Part shown: in pieces, positions 1-30,675 of the stretch | Layout: every line of letters starts with the position of its first letter | Numbering within the stretch: position 1 is the first letter of the stretch | Virus record (IMG/VR): IMGVR_UViG_3300044631_001108 | Location: 1-53,067 of that record | From: a virus | Length of the DNA stretch: 53,067 bases | Strand: one strand, 5' to 3' | Made by a program: the position numbers and the translations under genes | The notes under the pieces: generated by a model | Told to the model about the DNA's origin: nothing | Seen by the model: only the letters and a program-made list of their open reading frames with translations | Databases searched by the model: none

Positions 1-169
1 TGACGATGTAGTCGCCCGTCTGGTCTAGGTGCCATTCAACGAGATCGACGCCATCGGTAATGCCGATAGTTTCGACTATCTCTTCCAGCCATTCGGGCGG
101 ACAACCCGGCTCTGCTACCAACCTCTGGGGCTGGTCTTGGGTCATTGTTAGTGTGCTTGCTTCGGTCAT
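1..169 (-). CDS. Unknown protein, C-terminus beyond window
   Basis: Open frame of 56 codons from an ATG at 169 that leaves the window at its left edge without a stop. The visible part is acidic with several Trp and Pro residues (PPEWLEEIV, VEWHLDQTGDY) and resembles no family I know. It lies 66 bases downstream of the 118-aa gene on the same strand and is probably cotranscribed with it. AAAGG 9 nt before the ATG is a weak ribosome-binding site. Confidence 0.6.
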   Translation of the reverse strand, partial: MTEASTLTMTQDQPQRLVAEPGCPPEWLEEIVETIGITDGVDLVEWHLDQTGDYIV

Positions 170-235
170 GTTATTGGGCCTTTGTCGTGTTGTCCTGGTC
201 GTGCCCCAGGGTTGGCAGAGATTGAGCGTTCGCCT

Positions 236-592
236 TCACGCTGCGCAGTCGAGCATGTCCACAATATCATGTTCCACCATGCGGAGCGCGCCGATGGCCT
301 GATATGCGGTCACGTCCGACTCCTGACCGTAGCGGCGGATTACGCTCCGCAGTTCTCGCCTGAGCATCGCGCCAGCATCTCCGCTGGCTCCGTCTCCCCA
401 CTCTTGCTCCCATGCTCTCATGGTAGCGGCAGCAAGTCCGTGCTCACCATCCAGCTTTGAGCAGCGGTGTCCCTTGAGACGGTGCCTCACATCCTCGCAG
501 ACTGGACAAACATAGCCCAAAAGGCGAACAAAACGGTGCATCCAAGTCCTCGTGGCTTGGACTGCTGTGTCAGTGGTTTCTAGGGTGCTCAT
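236..592 (-). CDS. Unknown 118-aa protein with CxxC motif
   Basis: The start is the ATG at 592. A longer frame upstream is only the antisense shadow of the helicase gene. Residues 30-45 carry a CPVC pair and a later HRC, which could form a small metal site, and the C-terminal half is helical and charged. No family is recognised. It is the first gene after dnaB on this strand and follows a promoter-like element (686-691/663-668) inside the 3' end of dnaB, so it may be expressed separately from the replication genes. Confidence 0.65.
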   Translation of the reverse strand: MSTLETTDTAVQATRTWMHRFVRLLGYVCPVCEDVRHRLKGHRCSKLDGEHGLAAATMRAWEQEWGDGASGDAGAMLRRELRSVIRRYGQESDVTAYQAIGALRMVEHDIVDMLDCAA

Positions 593-662
593 TGGTCTTC
601 TTGGGTTGTGGGCTTCGTTTCGGACTGACTGAACTCCGCGTTCTGGCCTGTTTATAAGTTCA

Positions 663-691
663 ACCTTACGCCAATTATCCCTCAGAATCAA
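663..691 (-). promoter_or_regulatory. Promoter TTGATT-N17-TAAGGT
   Basis: -35 TTGATT at 686-691 and -10 TAAGGT at 663-668 with 17 bases between, the last three being GCG. It overlaps the end of dnaB and reads toward the 118-aa gene, leaving a leader of about 60 nt. It belongs to the repeated promoter family described in the findings, but is one of the few members not set directly against a start codon. Confidence 0.55.
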
Positions 692-2060
692 CCTCTTTTC
701 GCAAAACCTCAAACCTGAAGTGCTTGCCGACAAGCTCCATGTCCACGGTGCGGTAGCGTTCACCGTCACGAACCTTGTGGAAGAACATCTGGCGCTGGAA
801 ATTGGGCTTCTCCTCTTCTTTGCCCTTTTTCCATGAGGGGCCGTCGTTCTTGACGCCAATCTTCTTGATCTTGATGAGGTTGTCGGCGTCCTGCTCAATG
901 GCGCGGGATTCACGCACCTCGCCATCGTTGTTCACCTGCGAAGGCATGATGATGTGTGCCCCCGTCATCTTGGCGCACTGCTTGGTGGTAGCCGTGATGT
1001 GAGCAACCTCGCGTTCTCGATTTTGAGAATTTTCGGTAGTCTTGCATAGCTGGATGTAGTCAATCATCGCAACAAGCCTTTTGCCAGCGTTCAATTTACG
1101 CGACCTGCGTGAAATATCGCGGCAGATTTGCTCAATCGTCTTTCCAGCCACATCCACGATGCTGAAGTCCCATTTCGCCGCCTTGTTTGCCACAAGGCCA
1201 AGGTTGAGCATTTCATTGCGCGTCAGCATCCCCGTTTTGAGGTTTTTGGCGTCAATCTTGCCCTGAGAGCACAAAATGCGCTTCACTTCCGCCTTGGGCA
1301 TCATTTCGTAGGTGTAGTCAACGGCGCAACCACCCTCGATAGCCACCCATTCGAGCATTTGTCGGCACAAACTGGACTTGCCATCACTGGACTCAGCCGC
1401 CACAACCGTCAGGCATCCGGGTTCAAGACCGCCCATGATGTCATCAAATTCGGCGATACCAGTCGAAACCCCGGTGATTTTCCGCCCCGACTTCGCCATA
1501 TCCTCGGCGTCCTGCAAGACCTCGTTAATGAGTTCCGCCATCGGGCGATGCTCCAAATCAGGGCTGCCATCGTCATTTGCAGCCTCCACAACGCTTTTAA
1601 TGACGTTCTGGAGGGTATCGGCAGCGGAAGAACCCTCCGACTCGTTAAAACGCAAAAGAACGTCCATTCCAGCGGCAAGAACGCCAATCATGGCCCTAAG
1701 CTGGTATTTCTGCCGCACAATCCCGGCGTAGTAGCCGAAATGCGACACCATCGGGATGTTCGAGTAGAAGACACTGAGCCTCGCCGGGCCTCCCATGTTG
1801 TCGAGAAGCCCTTTTTCACGGAGATTGATTGTCACGGAAGGCAGATCAATCGGCCTTCCAGCGTTGAAAAGCTCCAAGAAAGCCTCGATCAGCCAGCGGT
1901 GATGGACGTGGAAGAATGAATCCACGGGCGGGCACTCCTCAATCAGCCTTGGGTGGTGGAAAATCGAGGAAACAACCGTCTGTTCAGCCTCCTCAGACCA
2001 CGGAAGCTGGGCGTCTTTGAAGGACGCTAGAAGCTGTTCGATTGTGGGAGGAGGTGTCAT
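675..2060 (-). CDS. dnaB: Replicative DNA helicase, DnaB family
   Basis: A 461-aa RecA-fold helicase that unwinds DNA at the phage fork. An N-terminal DnaB-type helical domain (about 15-120) is followed by a linker and the ATPase domain. The Walker A is AESSDGKSS (about 222-230), with Ala at the first position as in bacterial DnaB. The Walker B is AMIDYIQL (331-338). The DnaB-specific segment SQVNNDGEVRESRAIEQDAD (374-393) is present. Length matches the family (about 450-470 aa). The preceding gene overlaps it by ATGA. Upstream lies a replisome-organiser gene, the usual partner that loads such a helicase. No primase or polymerase is encoded nearby, so host enzymes probably complete the replisome. 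Confidence 0.95.
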   Translation of the reverse strand: MTPPPTIEQLLASFKDAQLPWSEEAEQTVVSSIFHHPRLIEECPPVDSFFHVHHRWLIEAFLELFNAGRPIDLPSVTINLREKGLLDNMGGPARLSVFYSNIPMVSHFGYYAGIVRQKYQLRAMIGVLAAGMDVLLRFNESEGSSAADTLQNVIKSVVEAANDDGSPDLEHRPMAELINEVLQDAEDMAKSGRKITGVSTGIAEFDDIMGGLEPGCLTVVAAESSDGKSSLCRQMLEWVAIEGGCAVDYTYEMMPKAEVKRILCSQGKIDAKNLKTGMLTRNEMLNLGLVANKAAKWDFSIVDVAGKTIEQICRDISRRSRKLNAGKRLVAMIDYIQLCKTTENSQNREREVAHITATTKQCAKMTGAHIIMPSQVNNDGEVRESRAIEQDADNLIKIKKIGVKNDGPSWKKGKEEEKPNFQRQMFFHKVRDGERYRTVDMELVGKHFRFEVLRKEVDSEG

Positions 2061-2284
2061 TTAACGTCTATGACGACACGAGAATTGTCATGCCATTGGT
2101 AAGGGTTATTTGGCGCATCAAATGCCTTGGCCCACTCAGCTTTCGATGGATTGCGTACTGAGCCTGTTTTGCCAGTCTTGGGGCAATAAAGCATCAACCA
2201 GCCTTCGCTGAGGGCGGTTGAGAAAACCCACCAGTCATAATCTGGATGAGTCGATTGAGGTGGCGTGTCTAGGTTTGCTATCAT
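2057..2284 (-). CDS. Unknown 75-aa protein
   Basis: The start is the ATG at 2284, chosen over an upstream in-frame ATG because AAAGGAAC lies 6-7 nt before it, one of the better ribosome-binding sites here. The protein is soluble and aromatic-rich (DYDWWVFSTALSEGWLML, then KTGKTGSVRNP). No family is recognised. It overlaps dnaB by four bases and is likely translationally coupled to it. Confidence 0.7.
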   Translation of the reverse strand: MIANLDTPPQSTHPDYDWWVFSTALSEGWLMLYCPKTGKTGSVRNPSKAEWAKAFDAPNNPYQWHDNSRVVIDVK

Positions 2285-2315
2285 GGTGTTCCTTTCTTGG
2301 GTGTATTTGGGTAAA

Positions 2316-2576
2316 TTATTCTTCGTCAATTCCGCAATCGTCTAAATCAAGCGTCTGCCATTTTTCAGCAGAGATGTCAGATTGCACACATTCGATGGAG
2401 TCCTCGCGGCGTGAAATATATAAATATGATCCCGTCTCGTCTGAGTTGACGAAAAAAATGGCGTCGGGCCAATGGTTCATAACCATGACTCGAACCTCAT
2501 TGAGTTTTCTCACAATTTCGTTCAGTCTGCGCTGAGCCGAAGATTCAATATTTTCAGGGAGTGATGTATAGTTCAT
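2316..2576 (-). CDS. Unknown 86-aa protein
   Basis: The start is the ATG at 2576 (MNYTSLPEN), 10 bases after the stop of the replisome organiser. The longer upstream frame is antisense to that gene. Residues 10-35 form a charged amphipathic helix and the C-terminus is very acidic. It sits between the organiser and dnaB in one transcription unit. Function unknown. Confidence 0.65.
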   Translation of the reverse strand: MNYTSLPENIESSAQRRLNEIVRKLNEVRVMVMNHWPDAIFFVNSDETGSYLYISRREDSIECVQSDISAEKWQTLDLDDCGIDEE

Positions 2577-2586
2577 GGTTTGTGGT

Positions 2587-3366
2587 TTATTGGATGTTTC
2601 CGATGATGGTGTTCCAGCGAAGGCAAAGGTCGCAAAGGTTGAGGATTCGGATGGAGTTGGGGGCAAAAGCGCCCTTTTGCACCTCAAGCGACCAAATTCC
2701 GCTTAATGCGTCTCTCATTTTTGAGACTTCAACAGTTGGATTGGCTCGCAAAAACTCCTTTAGGTGCTTAAAGTCCTTAGAATGAAAGGAATACGGCGTG
2801 TTAAACCGCTCATTCCACATGTCGCGCCACATTTCGATGGCTTCTTGATGGCGAGGATCGGCGGGTTTTGGCGGTCTGCCACGCTTTGCGGGTGGATTGG
2901 AATGAATGATTGGCTTCTCGACCCCTTTCGGGAAAGCGAACAATTCAACCCGCTCGTTGCCCGAATTTTTTAATTCGGGAGATGTATATTCTTTTTCTAT
3001 TCTGTTCTTTGTAGAGAACGGCTCTCCGTCAGACGGGAAGCCGTCATCTGGAATCCCGTTAGTCGGACTAGATGCGTCGCTCCAGTGCCACGTCATGCAG
3101 GTTACGCGCTGAGTATGTGGATCGCGTTCGCAGACCCGCTTCAAGTACCCGAAAGTCTCTAGCTCTTTGAAGGCACCTTGCAAAGCCTCTCTACCCTCGG
3201 TTGCCTGATCCTCAATCCAAGAGGCATTCGTCCTCCAGTTTTCAGGCTTAGACAGCATCATGACCAATAGGCCGCGAGCTTTGAAAGATAGCCGCTTGTC
3301 GCAAAGCAGTTGGTTCGGCAACACGGTGAAGTGCTCAGAAAGTTTTCGGCGGTGAATCGTTGTCAT
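2587..3366 (-). CDS. Replisome organiser, wHTH replication initiation protein
   Basis: A 259-aa protein with the architecture of phage replisome organisers (DnaD/Rep_O-like). The N-terminal winged helix (about 15-95) carries the typical VLPNQLLCDKRLSFKARGLL and NWRTNASWIEDQATEGREAL segments. A Lys/Pro-rich linker (KRGRPPKPAD, about 165-175) leads to a C-terminal helical domain that may contact the helicase. Position upstream of dnaB supports recruitment of DnaB to the origin. It is coupled by ATGA to the gene before it. A second, differently built organiser-like protein is at 16715-17395. Confidence 0.75.
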   Translation of the reverse strand: MTTIHRRKLSEHFTVLPNQLLCDKRLSFKARGLLVMMLSKPENWRTNASWIEDQATEGREALQGAFKELETFGYLKRVCERDPHTQRVTCMTWHWSDASSPTNGIPDDGFPSDGEPFSTKNRIEKEYTSPELKNSGNERVELFAFPKGVEKPIIHSNPPAKRGRPPKPADPRHQEAIEMWRDMWNERFNTPYSFHSKDFKHLKEFLRANPTVEVSKMRDALSGIWSLEVQKGAFAPNSIRILNLCDLCLRWNTIIGNIQ

Positions 3367-4306: not shown

Positions 4307-4933
4307 TTAGTAATTTTCAGCTTCCTCTCGCGTGATGAAAAAGTGAATACCTGAAGCACACTCATCTTGCCAGTCTTCAGAAAACGGCTTTTTGGGCCTG
4401 ACGATTTCGCCTTTTTTGTATTCAAAGGCTGGATCGTGCGAGGAAAAACCCACATCCACTTCGTTGTCACCATCATAAATTGCCACAACAATAGCCTCAG
4501 AGCATCGACACTTGCGACCAAAAGCATTAGAGCGTTTTGCGGATTCAGGAATGCGCAATTTTGCAATACTTCCATTTTGCAGCTTCTTCCAACCAATAAT
4601 TTCCCCGTCTGGAAGAATGCGTGTTTGTGCAATGATTAATGTTGCGTATTTGGCACCGCAAAGATCAGCACCGTGAAGGTCAGCACCGCGAAGGTCAGCA
4701 TCGCAAAGATCAGCACCGTGAAGGTCAGCACCGCAAAGATCAGCACAGCGAAGGTCAGCGCCGCGAAGGTCAGCGCCGCGAAGGTCAGCATTGCAAAGAT
4801 CAGCGCCGCGAAGGTCAGCACAGCGAAGGTCAGTTTTTGATTTGATGGCCGTCGCAACTGCCTCATAAATAGAAGCGTAGTCGCCCTCATGTATCACACT
4901 GCCTGTAAACCTGTTCTTAATTTGTGTTTTCAT
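4307..4933 (-). CDS. Pentapeptide-repeat protein
   Basis: 208 aa. A short N-terminal helix (EAVATAIKSK) leads into about twelve A(D/N)LxxADL pentapeptide pairs (about residues 35-97), the signature of a right-handed quadrilateral beta-helix. The C-terminal 110 residues form a separate domain with GEIIGWKKLQNGSIAKLRIP and a GIHFFITREEAE end, as in phage pentapeptide proteins of the DUF5758 type. The promoter at 4943-4971 places its -10 nine nt before the ATG, so the mRNA should be nearly leaderless. Some pentapeptide proteins mimic DNA and block gyrase, but nothing here proves that. Confidence 0.9.
   Translation of the reverse strand: MKTQIKNRFTGSVIHEGDYASIYEAVATAIKSKTDLRCADLRGADLCNADLRGADLRGADLRCADLCGADLHGADLCDADLRGADLHGADLCGAKYATLIIAQTRILPDGEIIGWKKLQNGSIAKLRIPESAKRSNAFGRKCRCSEAIVVAIYDGDNEVDVGFSSHDPAFEYKKGEIVRPKKPFSEDWQDECASGIHFFITREEAENY
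4652..4840. repeat. 15-base tandem repeat array coding pentapeptides
   Basis: Plus strand shows repeated units of the form AAGGTCAGCRCCGCG / AAAGATCAGCACCGY in near-perfect 15-base register. Nucleotide identity is higher than protein function needs, indicating recent expansion by slippage or unequal recombination. Confidence 0.85.
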
Positions 4934-7016: not shown

Positions 7017-7814
7017 TTACTGTTTGAGCCACTTCTTCCGCTCCCACGGGCTTATCTCCAATTCGAGGATGCCATTGCCGTAGCCATTCCATTTGCCCGT
7101 GGTTGAGCATTCGGTGTAGAGGTCAATGGCCTTGTCCATTTGAGCCTGACCAATCTCAACGGCCTCGGCTGGCGGGCTAAAGATGCAAACATCGCTCGCT
7201 TCTGTCTTTTCCGCCACAAGCCAATAAAACGGAGGCGGGTAATCAAGGCCAAGCTCAAGAGCAAGCAGAGTCCGATACCAGATCAACTGCAAGAAATAGA
7301 ACCTGCTGGATGCTTCTTTGGCCCATACCTGCGGATTCGCATCTTTTGCAGTTTTGAGGTCAACGATGAACCAGTTGCCAGATTCATCCTGCCCCGCCGC
7401 GTCAATTTTGCCTTTGATTTCAATGCCGCGATACTTTTGCACGATGCCGATTTCACGCTTGGTGCATTTGCCAAGCAAGTATTGAACGTCTGCATTGCCC
7501 TGAATCGACTGGATAAGCCGCTGGCATGTCGCATAGCCATCTCGGCTCATTGTCTCTTTGTCTGCGTTGGCAGCTTTCCACGACTTTCCCTCCTTTGTTC
7601 TACCGTCCATGCCTTCCGGCATGACGGCCACTGGATAGTCTTTGCCTTCAAGGACTTTGGCGTGAACCACGGAACCGATAAGCATGTCTTCACTAGGATC
7701 AATCTTCTTTGCCAGAGAAGCCTTGTAGTGTTTTGGCGATAGCAGGATGTTTTTGATGCTGCTAAAATTTAGAGCGGAATGCGCCCGGTAAATATCGTCT
7801 TCAAGGATAATCAT
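7017..7814 (-). CDS. RecE-type PD-(D/E)XK 5'-3' exonuclease
   Basis: 265 aa matching the catalytic domain of exonuclease VIII (RecE). HSALNFSSIKNILLSPKHY is at the start, then GSVVHAKVLEG (H51), E121 (REIGIV), KGKIDAAG (D138), IVDLKTAKD (D152, K154; the D-x-K core) and FLQLIWYRTLL. It resects dsDNA ends to 3' overhangs for RecT. The stop overlaps nothing downstream, but its start overlaps the recT stop by ATGA, so the two are made together. A strand-annealing (not RecA) recombination pathway is inferred. Confidence 0.9.
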   Translation of the reverse strand: MIILEDDIYRAHSALNFSSIKNILLSPKHYKASLAKKIDPSEDMLIGSVVHAKVLEGKDYPVAVMPEGMDGRTKEGKSWKAANADKETMSRDGYATCQRLIQSIQGNADVQYLLGKCTKREIGIVQKYRGIEIKGKIDAAGQDESGNWFIVDLKTAKDANPQVWAKEASSRFYFLQLIWYRTLLALELGLDYPPPFYWLVAEKTEASDVCIFSPPAEAVEIGQAQMDKAIDLYTECSTTGKWNGYGNGILELEISPWERKKWLKQ

Positions 7815-8545
7815 GCTTCCACCTCCGCTTGGCTAGGAAGGTTGAGAGTTGCTTTTGCCACAGGCGTAACATCGCGTTCGATGAGGATGTCCTGATCTTT
7901 GTCGATGTGCTCTGTGATTTCGCTCGAAAGAGGCAGCAGCTTGCAAAGACGGCGTATAGAAGTCTTGCGGGCCATCTCACCATAATCGGTGGCCCAAGGG
8001 CCGCTATTGCCAGAACGACTGCGTTTGCGGATAGCATCAACCTCATCTTTGGTCATGGTGGCTGTTTGAGTCTCGCCAGAGCGCAGAACGGCCTCGGCAT
8101 ACACGGCTTGAATTTCTCCGCGTGGTTTGCGCCATTCGACTTTGTGAGTAATCTTGCCATTCTCCCATGAGAACTCGTCATTCTCGCAGACAAGCTCGGA
8201 GCGGATGCTCACGACATCGCCCGAACGACGCACAAGCTCGATCATCCCAAAATAACTGAGGATCAAAGTACATTCGCTTCCGTATGGAATGAGGTAGGCG
8301 CGGCGGCCATCAGGCTCAAGACCAGCAGCCGACAAGTCCAAAAGGCACTTGAACAAACTCGTCTGCGTGCAGTCTTGTAGCTTGGGCGTGCGCGAAATTG
8401 CTGTGAGGGCAATGCGCGTAAACCGCTCAGGCGTCATGTGTTTTGGCAATGCCAAAGCGACCTGTTCTTTGAATTTGTCTCCGCTGATTAGCTCTTTGAG
8501 AGACGGTTGTTTCGTTGCCAGTTCTTGTTTTGGTGTTTCGCTCAT
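7811..8545 (-). CDS. recT: RecT single-strand annealing protein
   Basis: 244 aa. Family features: TRIALTAISRTPKLQDCTQ, SLFKCLLDLSAAGLEPDGR, AYLIPYGSECTLILSYFGMI and ELVCENDEFSWENG. The start is the ATG at 8545; an in-frame ATG six codons earlier lies inside the -10 of the promoter, so it cannot be on the transcript. It anneals ssDNA made by the adjacent RecE-like nuclease. Immediately upstream lies a structured-RNA candidate (8604-8740). Confidence 0.93.
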   Translation of the reverse strand: MSETPKQELATKQPSLKELISGDKFKEQVALALPKHMTPERFTRIALTAISRTPKLQDCTQTSLFKCLLDLSAAGLEPDGRRAYLIPYGSECTLILSYFGMIELVRRSGDVVSIRSELVCENDEFSWENGKITHKVEWRKPRGEIQAVYAEAVLRSGETQTATMTKDEVDAIRKRSRSGNSGPWATDYGEMARKTSIRRLCKLLPLSSEITEHIDKDQDILIERDVTPVAKATLNLPSQAEVEA

Positions 8546-8553
8546 AGAAGTCA

Positions 8554-8582
8554 ATCTTATCATTTTGTGCGCTGAAAAGCAA
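8554..8582 (-). promoter_or_regulatory. Promoter TTGCTT-N17-TAAGAT, leaderless type
   Basis: -35 TTGCTT (8577-8582), 17-base spacer, -10 TAAGAT (8554-8559), 8 nt to the ATG of recT at 8545. Drives the recT-recE-ssb-mazG-ruvC run. Confidence 0.65.
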
Positions 8583-8603: not shown

Positions 8604-8740
8604 TTGCCTGCCGCCGCGAGAGTCCTACTTGGGATCACTCCCTGTCTTCGGTTCTGTGCTCTCTCGCGCTTCGCGGGCATCGTTCACACATGGGTAGTGT
8701 TACATAGAAGGCTATCGGCCAGCACAGGCACGGCAGGCAA
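8604..8740 (-). ncRNA. Structured RNA candidate with pseudoknot
   Basis: About 137 nt closed by perfect 10-base arms, 8604-8613 with 8731-8740. Inside are an 8-bp stem (8615-8622/8661-8668), a hairpin GGGA/TCCC (8631-8634/8639-8642) whose minus-strand loop is GUGA (a GNRA tetraloop), a stem 8686-8689/8697-8700, and a stem 8710-8712/8718-8720. CTGTGCT (8654-8660), in the loop of the 8-bp stem, pairs with AGCACAG (8721-8727) outside it, forming a 7-bp pseudoknot abutting that stem. No frame here looks coding. The GNRA loop favours the minus strand. I cannot match it to a known RNA class. Confidence 0.5.
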
Positions 8741-8831: not shown

Positions 8832-8981
8832 TTACTGACACGACTCGCAACCACCCTCAACATCGCAGGCTGGCGCTCCGAGTTCTTCGTTCAGATCGTC
8901 GTCCATCAGGCAGCAAGGTTGCGACGAATTGCAGGTCTTGGTGACTTGCTCAGTTTCGGGTTGTTCTGGTGTAGTGCTCAT
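8832..8981 (-). CDS. 49-aa cysteine-rich protein
   Basis: ATG at 8981, stop at 8832, GAGAGG 11 nt upstream. Acidic, with six Cys: TCNSSQPCC, then PACDVEGGCESCQ at the C-terminus. A metal-binding or redox mini-protein is possible. No homolog known to me. It lies just upstream, on the same strand, of the structured RNA. Confidence 0.5.
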   Translation of the reverse strand: MSTTPEQPETEQVTKTCNSSQPCCLMDDDLNEELGAPACDVEGGCESCQ

Positions 8982-30599: not shown

Positions 30600-30675
30600 T
30601 GGCAACCGGCTAAGGAATCGAACCTTACCAATCGGATTTGGAGTCCAACTCGCCAACCTTGGAACATGGCCGGTT
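30600..30675 (-). tRNA. tRNA-Trp (CCA anticodon)
   Basis: Acceptor stem AACCGGC (30669-30675) pairs fully with GCCGGTT (30604-30610). The anticodon stem TTGGA/TCCGA encloses loop CTCCAAA (anticodon CCA at 30639-30641). The T arm TAAGG-TTCGATT-CCTTA (30611-30627) is perfect. The 3' CCA is encoded (30600-30602). The D stem is poorly paired, which lowers certainty slightly. It would read UGG. Confidence 0.9.

Follow-up and report, generated by a model that had tools for sequence, protein, structure and literature searches.

Pseudoknotted structured elements of uncultivated phages, found between genes and in frame inside them

Rickettsia palindromic elements (RPEs) are 105–146 bp long, carry terminal inverted repeats and fall into several families (PMC2229807). 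They insert in frame into protein genes and are also found in intergenic regions and RNA genes, and they are described as long stem-loops, without mention of a pseudoknot (PMC2229807, PMC10969869). Repeats of the MITE, ERIC and RUP types are small and non-autonomous, have inverted-repeat ends and are sometimes fused in frame to ORFs (PMC2229807). The phage elements analyzed here, which we call the W-class, resemble RPEs, when compared by description and not by sequence, in their size (113–189 nt) and self-complementary ends, and their copies lie in frame in unrelated protein genes, with one frame open. Unlike RPEs, they occur in phages of uncultivated hosts, have a covarying pseudoknot (three helices), exchange their loops and form chains with tRNA-like elements. 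With the MITE, ERIC and RUP types they share small size, lack of autonomy, inverted ends and in-frame positions in ORFs, but the sequence of their closing helix P1 is free as long as it pairs, whereas those repeats have fixed ends recognized by a transposase; in addition, W-class copies per genome are few, and a clear duplication of target sites was not observed. Structured RNAs with pseudoknots also travel inside mobile elements in the case of HEARO/omega RNA and IStrons. The W-class would fit this general description, but it has no Rfam match, and neither IscB/TnpB nor another fixed partner was recognized beside the copies. The core of group I introns contains the P3/P7 pseudoknot with variable domains between its strands; the W-class has the same pseudoknot strand order, with variable domains between, but is too small for a group I intron, matches no Rfam family and is in frame and stop-free in genes. 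ORF-invading palindromic elements as such are a known kind; what is new, as far as can be told, is this class of structure, together with its occurrence in phages, its exchangeable loops and its chains with tRNA-like elements. In the literature on structured, in-frame mobile elements of phages, searched with coverage of few subscription papers and preprints, we found RPEs and MITEs only, and the present element is undescribed there.

The window, that is, the whole stretch of DNA analyzed, is a virus record of 53,067 nt. Its copy of the element (W) is 137 nt long and occupies positions 8604–8740 on the minus strand. Read from 8740 down to 8604, the order is P1 5′ strand, UGC, Pa 5′ strand, loop 1, Pb 5′ strand, Pa 3′ strand, loop 2, Pb 3′ strand, a single G and P1 3′ strand. 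P1 pairs UUGCCUGCCG (8731–8740) with CGGCAGGCAA (8604–8613), and 8 of its 10 pairs are changed on both sides across the homologues. Pa pairs CUGUGCU (8721–8727; core UGUGCU, 8721–8726) with AGCACAG (8654–8660), while the 8-bp helix Pb is formed by CGCGAGAG (8661–8668) and CUCUCGCG (8615–8622); both helices covary. Together, Pa and Pb make an H-type pseudoknot enclosed by P1. The sequence-only reading of this DNA had proposed the same three pairings, and its positions proved exact; the Pb 5′ strand directly abuts the Pa 3′ strand at 8661/8660, so the contiguity it had described between the pseudoknot strand and the 8-bp stem is real. Loop 1 (8669–8720) is a variable domain that starts with the conserved GGCCGA (8715–8720), ends with GAAG and is block-replaced in the related contig L063. 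Loop 2 (8623–8653), the second variable domain, holds in W the hairpin GGGA-GUGA-UCCC, where the predicted minus-strand GNRA loop is indeed present and is closed by GGGA/UCCC; close relatives in the W sub-group keep a GNRA loop as GUGA, GCGA or GCAA. Some copies also show a short basal stem in loop 1 (P2), which is not significant in most and is not claimed. Judged from general knowledge, the strand order does not fit HDV-like, twister or pistol folds. Folding energy on its own is weak evidence for the fold and is not decisive (z = −1.4 on the plus and −2.4 on the minus strand), and 10-bp inverted arms are also present elsewhere in the window. It is covariation, not energy, that puts the fold above chance.

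Homologues were collected in several ways. Viruses with a related RecT yielded one orthologous copy (L002/L017), and exact-match searches for short segments of the element led to L018 and a contig of a bacterial MAG (L020), then to L022, L023, L024, L025 and L026. A covariance model built from eight sequences (R1), under which W scores 130 bits, revealed that L025 has a second, divergent copy; two degenerate scans followed by R1 brought the set to 28 distinct copies including W. A refined model (R2) added L100, the second copy in record G299, which lies outside all stretches matched by the patterns. In total, 28 further copies (29 with W), all with the same block order and covarying helices, are present in uncultivated viral contigs and the one MAG. 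P1 has 6–13 bp in most of them, Pa 6–7 bp and Pb 8 bp. Four viruses (L025, L043, L060 and L068) carry two copies apiece; the members of such a pair are not close duplicates of each other, and recent bursts are thus not indicated. Matches in L027, L028, L044, L047 and L059 were rejected as chance or false. In Rfam 15, no family reached its curated gathering score and permissive thresholds gave chance matches only, in agreement with the earlier statement that the layout belongs to no known class. BLASTN of W and several homologues against 50,697 phage records gave no convincing match even at E = 10, a search that is insensitive here because only short blocks are conserved, and R1 found no further copy in 289 genomes of the phylum of the MAG match.

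Among 28 sequences, 12 of the 24 pairs are changed on both sides, a value reached in none of 500 shuffles; 92% of pair cells are standard, and all measures exceed those of all 500 shuffles and every slid control. A 12-sequence set that includes L100 shows covariation in 14 of 24 pairs (8 in P1, 3 in Pa and 3 in Pb). Thus, the compensatory changes that a homologue alignment was expected to reveal in the 10-bp, 8-bp and 7-bp helices are found in all three, and the reading of the region as a pseudoknotted structured RNA is supported in every helix. Pa variants include UGUACU/AGUACA (L069), UUUGCU/AGCAAA (L042), UGUGCC/GGCAC (L081), UUGCUU/AAGCA (second copy of L025) and UGUGUU/AACACA (L100), and Pb variants include CGCUACGG/CCGUAGCG (L100) and UGCGAGA/UUUCGCA (second copy of L060). 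In the divergent L100, both Pa and Pb are altered on both strands and pairing is kept. Most copies were found by patterns containing pieces of Pa and Pb, so the near-invariance of these pieces is partly a matter of ascertainment; the compensatory changes in them are not. G-U pairs are few across the helices, so the pairing data fit either RNA or a folded DNA strand; the GNRA loop of the W sub-group and the strand bias favor RNA. We conclude that the W-class is a real folded RNA, absent from earlier catalogues, that many uncultivated phages carry.

The genes around W lie on the minus strand. This is also the conserved strand of the element, a point that the sequence-only reading had not settled, and it is codirectional with recT (7811–8563, minus strand; Pfam RecT, E = 8e-48), which is followed by a PD-(D/E)XK nuclease gene. 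A gap of 41 nt separates W from the recT ORF that follows it on this strand, an arrangement that would suit a cis-regulatory leader (riboswitch or attenuator) of recT or of phage genes generally. This explanation, which the sequence-only reading had entertained for recT, is highly improbable. The 28 copies have differing contexts and no common downstream gene, many are inside coding sequence, and no alternative terminator or promoter structure was seen; sigma-70 promoter and terminator scans around W found nothing. Among 14 viruses with a related recT (45–88% identity), no copy is present upstream of recT where the region is covered, except in L002. The link of the element to recT is incidental, and W is probably there by chance of insertion. 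Elsewhere, the copy of L018 sits between gpA-type terminase and portal genes, and that of L022 is upstream of an integrase-like gene (so named from reading its sequence; it has no Pfam or PHROG match), chained with tRNA-like elements. Other sites include the C-terminal end of a resolvase-like ORF, positions beside HNH-like genes and the interior of terminase-like ORFs. By our own reading of the flanking ORFs, and with kinship ignored, about 26 of 28 copies point in the same direction as neighboring genes. The window also contains, upstream of W, a 49-aa Cys-rich ORF (MSTTPEQPETEQVTKTCNSSQPCC...; 8832–8981, minus strand) conserved in L017 and L063, as well as an ORF rich in pentapeptide-like ADLRGADLC repeats (4307–4933, minus strand) and a tRNA-Trp (cca) gene (30600–30675, minus strand).

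Genes harbor many of the copies, and these are read in a single, constant frame without stops, VPVLAE...EARES...DSRGG (frame 0; GTG CCT GTG CTG GCC GAx for VPVLAE). With kinship ignored, 20 of 28 copies have no stop in this frame from end to end of the element, versus 9.1 expected from shuffling of the loops alone; for the other two frames, the counts are 8 and 5 of 28. Loop 1 has a length divisible by three in 24 of 28 copies (p ~1e-8, kinship ignored), the exceptions being W, L017, L022 and L026. The 3′ block is read as DSRGG or TLAAG, in frames that differ between copies. In W itself, no long minus-strand ORF covers the element and frame 0 is no longer open; the description of the region as otherwise empty consequently holds for W but not for the many homologues that lie inside genes. 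The open frame of most copies is what one would expect if the element were a linker peptide (VPVLAE...EARES...DSRGG) whose DNA is conserved through coding only. The probability of this explanation is close to negligible, given the double compensatory changes in all helices and the differing frames of the 3′ block. As the sole explanation it is refuted by the intergenic copies with a lost frame or an out-of-frame loop 1 (W, L017, L022 and L063), which keep all helices.

Gain and loss can be followed at one site. In L048 and L081, the element lies inside orthologous genes with Walker-type motifs, which we call terminase-like because the L086 orthologue has a weak match to Terminase_6N (E = 0.0044). 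The orthologues in L085, L086 and L087 have no element, and L086 comes from the same metagenome as L048; in the L091 orthologue, there is a shortened relic that keeps P1 and has lost the pseudoknot. Across eleven orthologues, a single loop, after LLPIKRP and before FEVIGYEKVPRIK, holds insertions of 0 to ~370 nt, with zero in L093 and L094. All nine insertions tested are multiples of three and stop-free (joint chance ~1e-15, ignoring kinship). The presence and absence of the element among these genes could partly reflect loss. The same loop also houses two palindromic modules, B (TTTCAGCCGG..CCGGCTGAAA) and A (TTTGAGCGG..CCGCTCAAA), often abutting the element; no arms of module B were found in 241 genomes of the phylum to which the MAG belongs. 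In L085–L090, the loop after LLPIKRP is an insertion hot spot in which palindromic modules, up to several of them, follow one another in frame; they encode peptides such as ISAG..SPAEN and NLSGG..SPAQN; L088 has the ISAG..SPAE module twice. A location of this kind could also suit a self-splicing or self-cleaving ribozyme or mini-intron that removes itself from transcripts, since phage introns favor genes such as terminase, and the Pa–Pb strand order is, from general knowledge, that of the group I P3/P7 pseudoknot. We regard this as very unlikely: no Rfam ribozyme or intron model matches, the ~110–190 nt of the element are below the known size of group I introns (again from general knowledge), and an excised element need not be in frame and stop-free, yet the copies are.

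The loops have a history of their own. L063 has the element at the same locus as W, where 448 of 450 upstream positions, 66 of 69 aligned downstream positions and all positions of the helix blocks (24, 16 and 22 nt; 100%) are identical. By contrast, the two copies agree at 16 of 46 positions in loop 1 (35%) and at 15 of 34 in loop 2 (44%), versus ~31% for shuffled loops in either case. Point mutation cannot give such a pattern, and hence the loops were replaced wholesale. Loop 2 is common to W, L017, L022 and L023, while loop 1 of L022 and that of L023 are unrelated, which indicates that the two loops are inherited separately. Palindromic insertions are found directly 3′ of the element in L063 (101 nt) and directly 5′ of it in L017 (~190 nt); comparison with the empty sites (L017/W and L063/W) shows repeats of at most 2 nt for these neighboring elements. 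Window positions 1–2987 are 100% identical over 2987 bases to the end of the L017 contig, which reflects either a recent recombination or an assembly join; the rest of the region shared by the window and L017 is ~75–97% identical.

More palindromic elements, with arms GAAAACAGAATCCAGCGG or TTTGAGCGG, directly abut or lie near W-class copies on the same strand (L017 4851–5037, L022 6158–6325, L023 194–294, L040 317–480, L072 2335–2441 in reverse-complement coordinates, and L087 2545–2651). The one in L017 folds with z = −5.4 and has no Rfam match. An unannotated gap of Alcaligenes phage vB_Af_QDWS595 (L021 2404–2533) shows the same layout as this L017 module, with closing arms, a GAAGGA-loop hairpin and an identical 24-nt 3′ hairpin (TAGCAGGTATCAAGCCCTGCCCGC), and offers, as a module-A-like element, a cultured phage in which these palindromic elements can be studied. 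The same phage has a tmRNA gene (66–413), where a beta_tmRNA match overlaps a tmRNA_permuted match, and several tRNA genes. L022 (6483–6632) and L023 (565–657) contain tRNA-like elements with a T-arm-like hairpin (GCAGGTTCAAATCCTGC) and acceptor-like arms GAGCGCG/CGCGCTC, which are not called by ARAGORN and are possibly tRNA-derived mobile elements.

A stable trans-acting phage RNA whose scaffold is fixed and whose loops change fast is the main alternative that these data bring up; it might serve, for instance, as a decoy or an inhibitor in an arms race with the host. Such an RNA would spread by ordinary recombination, and copies in ORFs would be expressed from the gene transcripts or tolerated. 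A scaffold kept while its loops are exchanged wholesale would fit it well, as would the full set of helices in the frame-broken intergenic copies and the tRNA-like modules adjoining some copies. However, the frame constraint in most copies and the insertion into terminase-like genes would be unexpected, and no promoter- or terminator-like site was found around W. On balance, we consider the trans-acting RNA rather unlikely. Of what had first been read from the sequence, the structured RNA stands and the recT leader is highly improbable; the probable mobility, the coding frame and the loop exchange were not visible to that reading.

We consider it probable that W is a copy of a new family of small, non-autonomous, pseudoknotted phage mobile elements tolerated in ORFs. 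Its fixed sense-strand scaffold would consist of P1 closing the H-type pseudoknot of Pa and Pb, with two variable domains attached. Copies would enter both intergenic gaps and coding genes in sense orientation and, owing to the one open frame (VPVLAE..EARES..DSRGG), translation of a copy in a gene would add a loop to the protein without destroying the gene. For movement, the folded strand, whether RNA or single-stranded DNA, is probably recognized by an enzyme supplied in trans; this would account for the maintenance of pairing despite the freedom of the P1 sequence and the loops. Conserved blocks of 16–24 nt may let related copies swap loops by recombination, and swapping through shared blocks would result in the same site and scaffold with different loops in sister viruses. 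As a speculation, the RecT and the exonuclease-like gene of the window virus could recombine such short blocks. Counting against a mobile element, no mobilizing enzyme (transposase, RT or other) was identified in this analysis, and the missing clear case of a target-site duplication and the divergence of paired copies within a virus point the same way. A bolder reading, which we hold to be less likely than not, is that this is a new type of mobile RNA element: the scaffold would be the unit of inheritance and the two loops exchangeable cassettes, and the element would travel in head-to-tail chains with tRNA-derived elements. The mechanism would act at the level of RNA or a folded strand, and phage proteins, terminase among them, would acquire new peptide loops in this way.

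The W-class is a well-supported structured RNA family from uncultivated phages that has no Rfam entry, and it presents an RNA fold maintained inside translated genes, where fold and reading frame are constrained together. Swapped loops on an unchanged scaffold pose the question of whether recombination, retrohoming or selection for novelty is at work. With this family, ideas on the origin of new loops in phage proteins, and on the persistence of small selfish elements in phage genomes, can be put to a concrete test; the family may also represent a phage counterpart, with a strongly defined fold, of the in-frame palindromic elements of Rickettsia.
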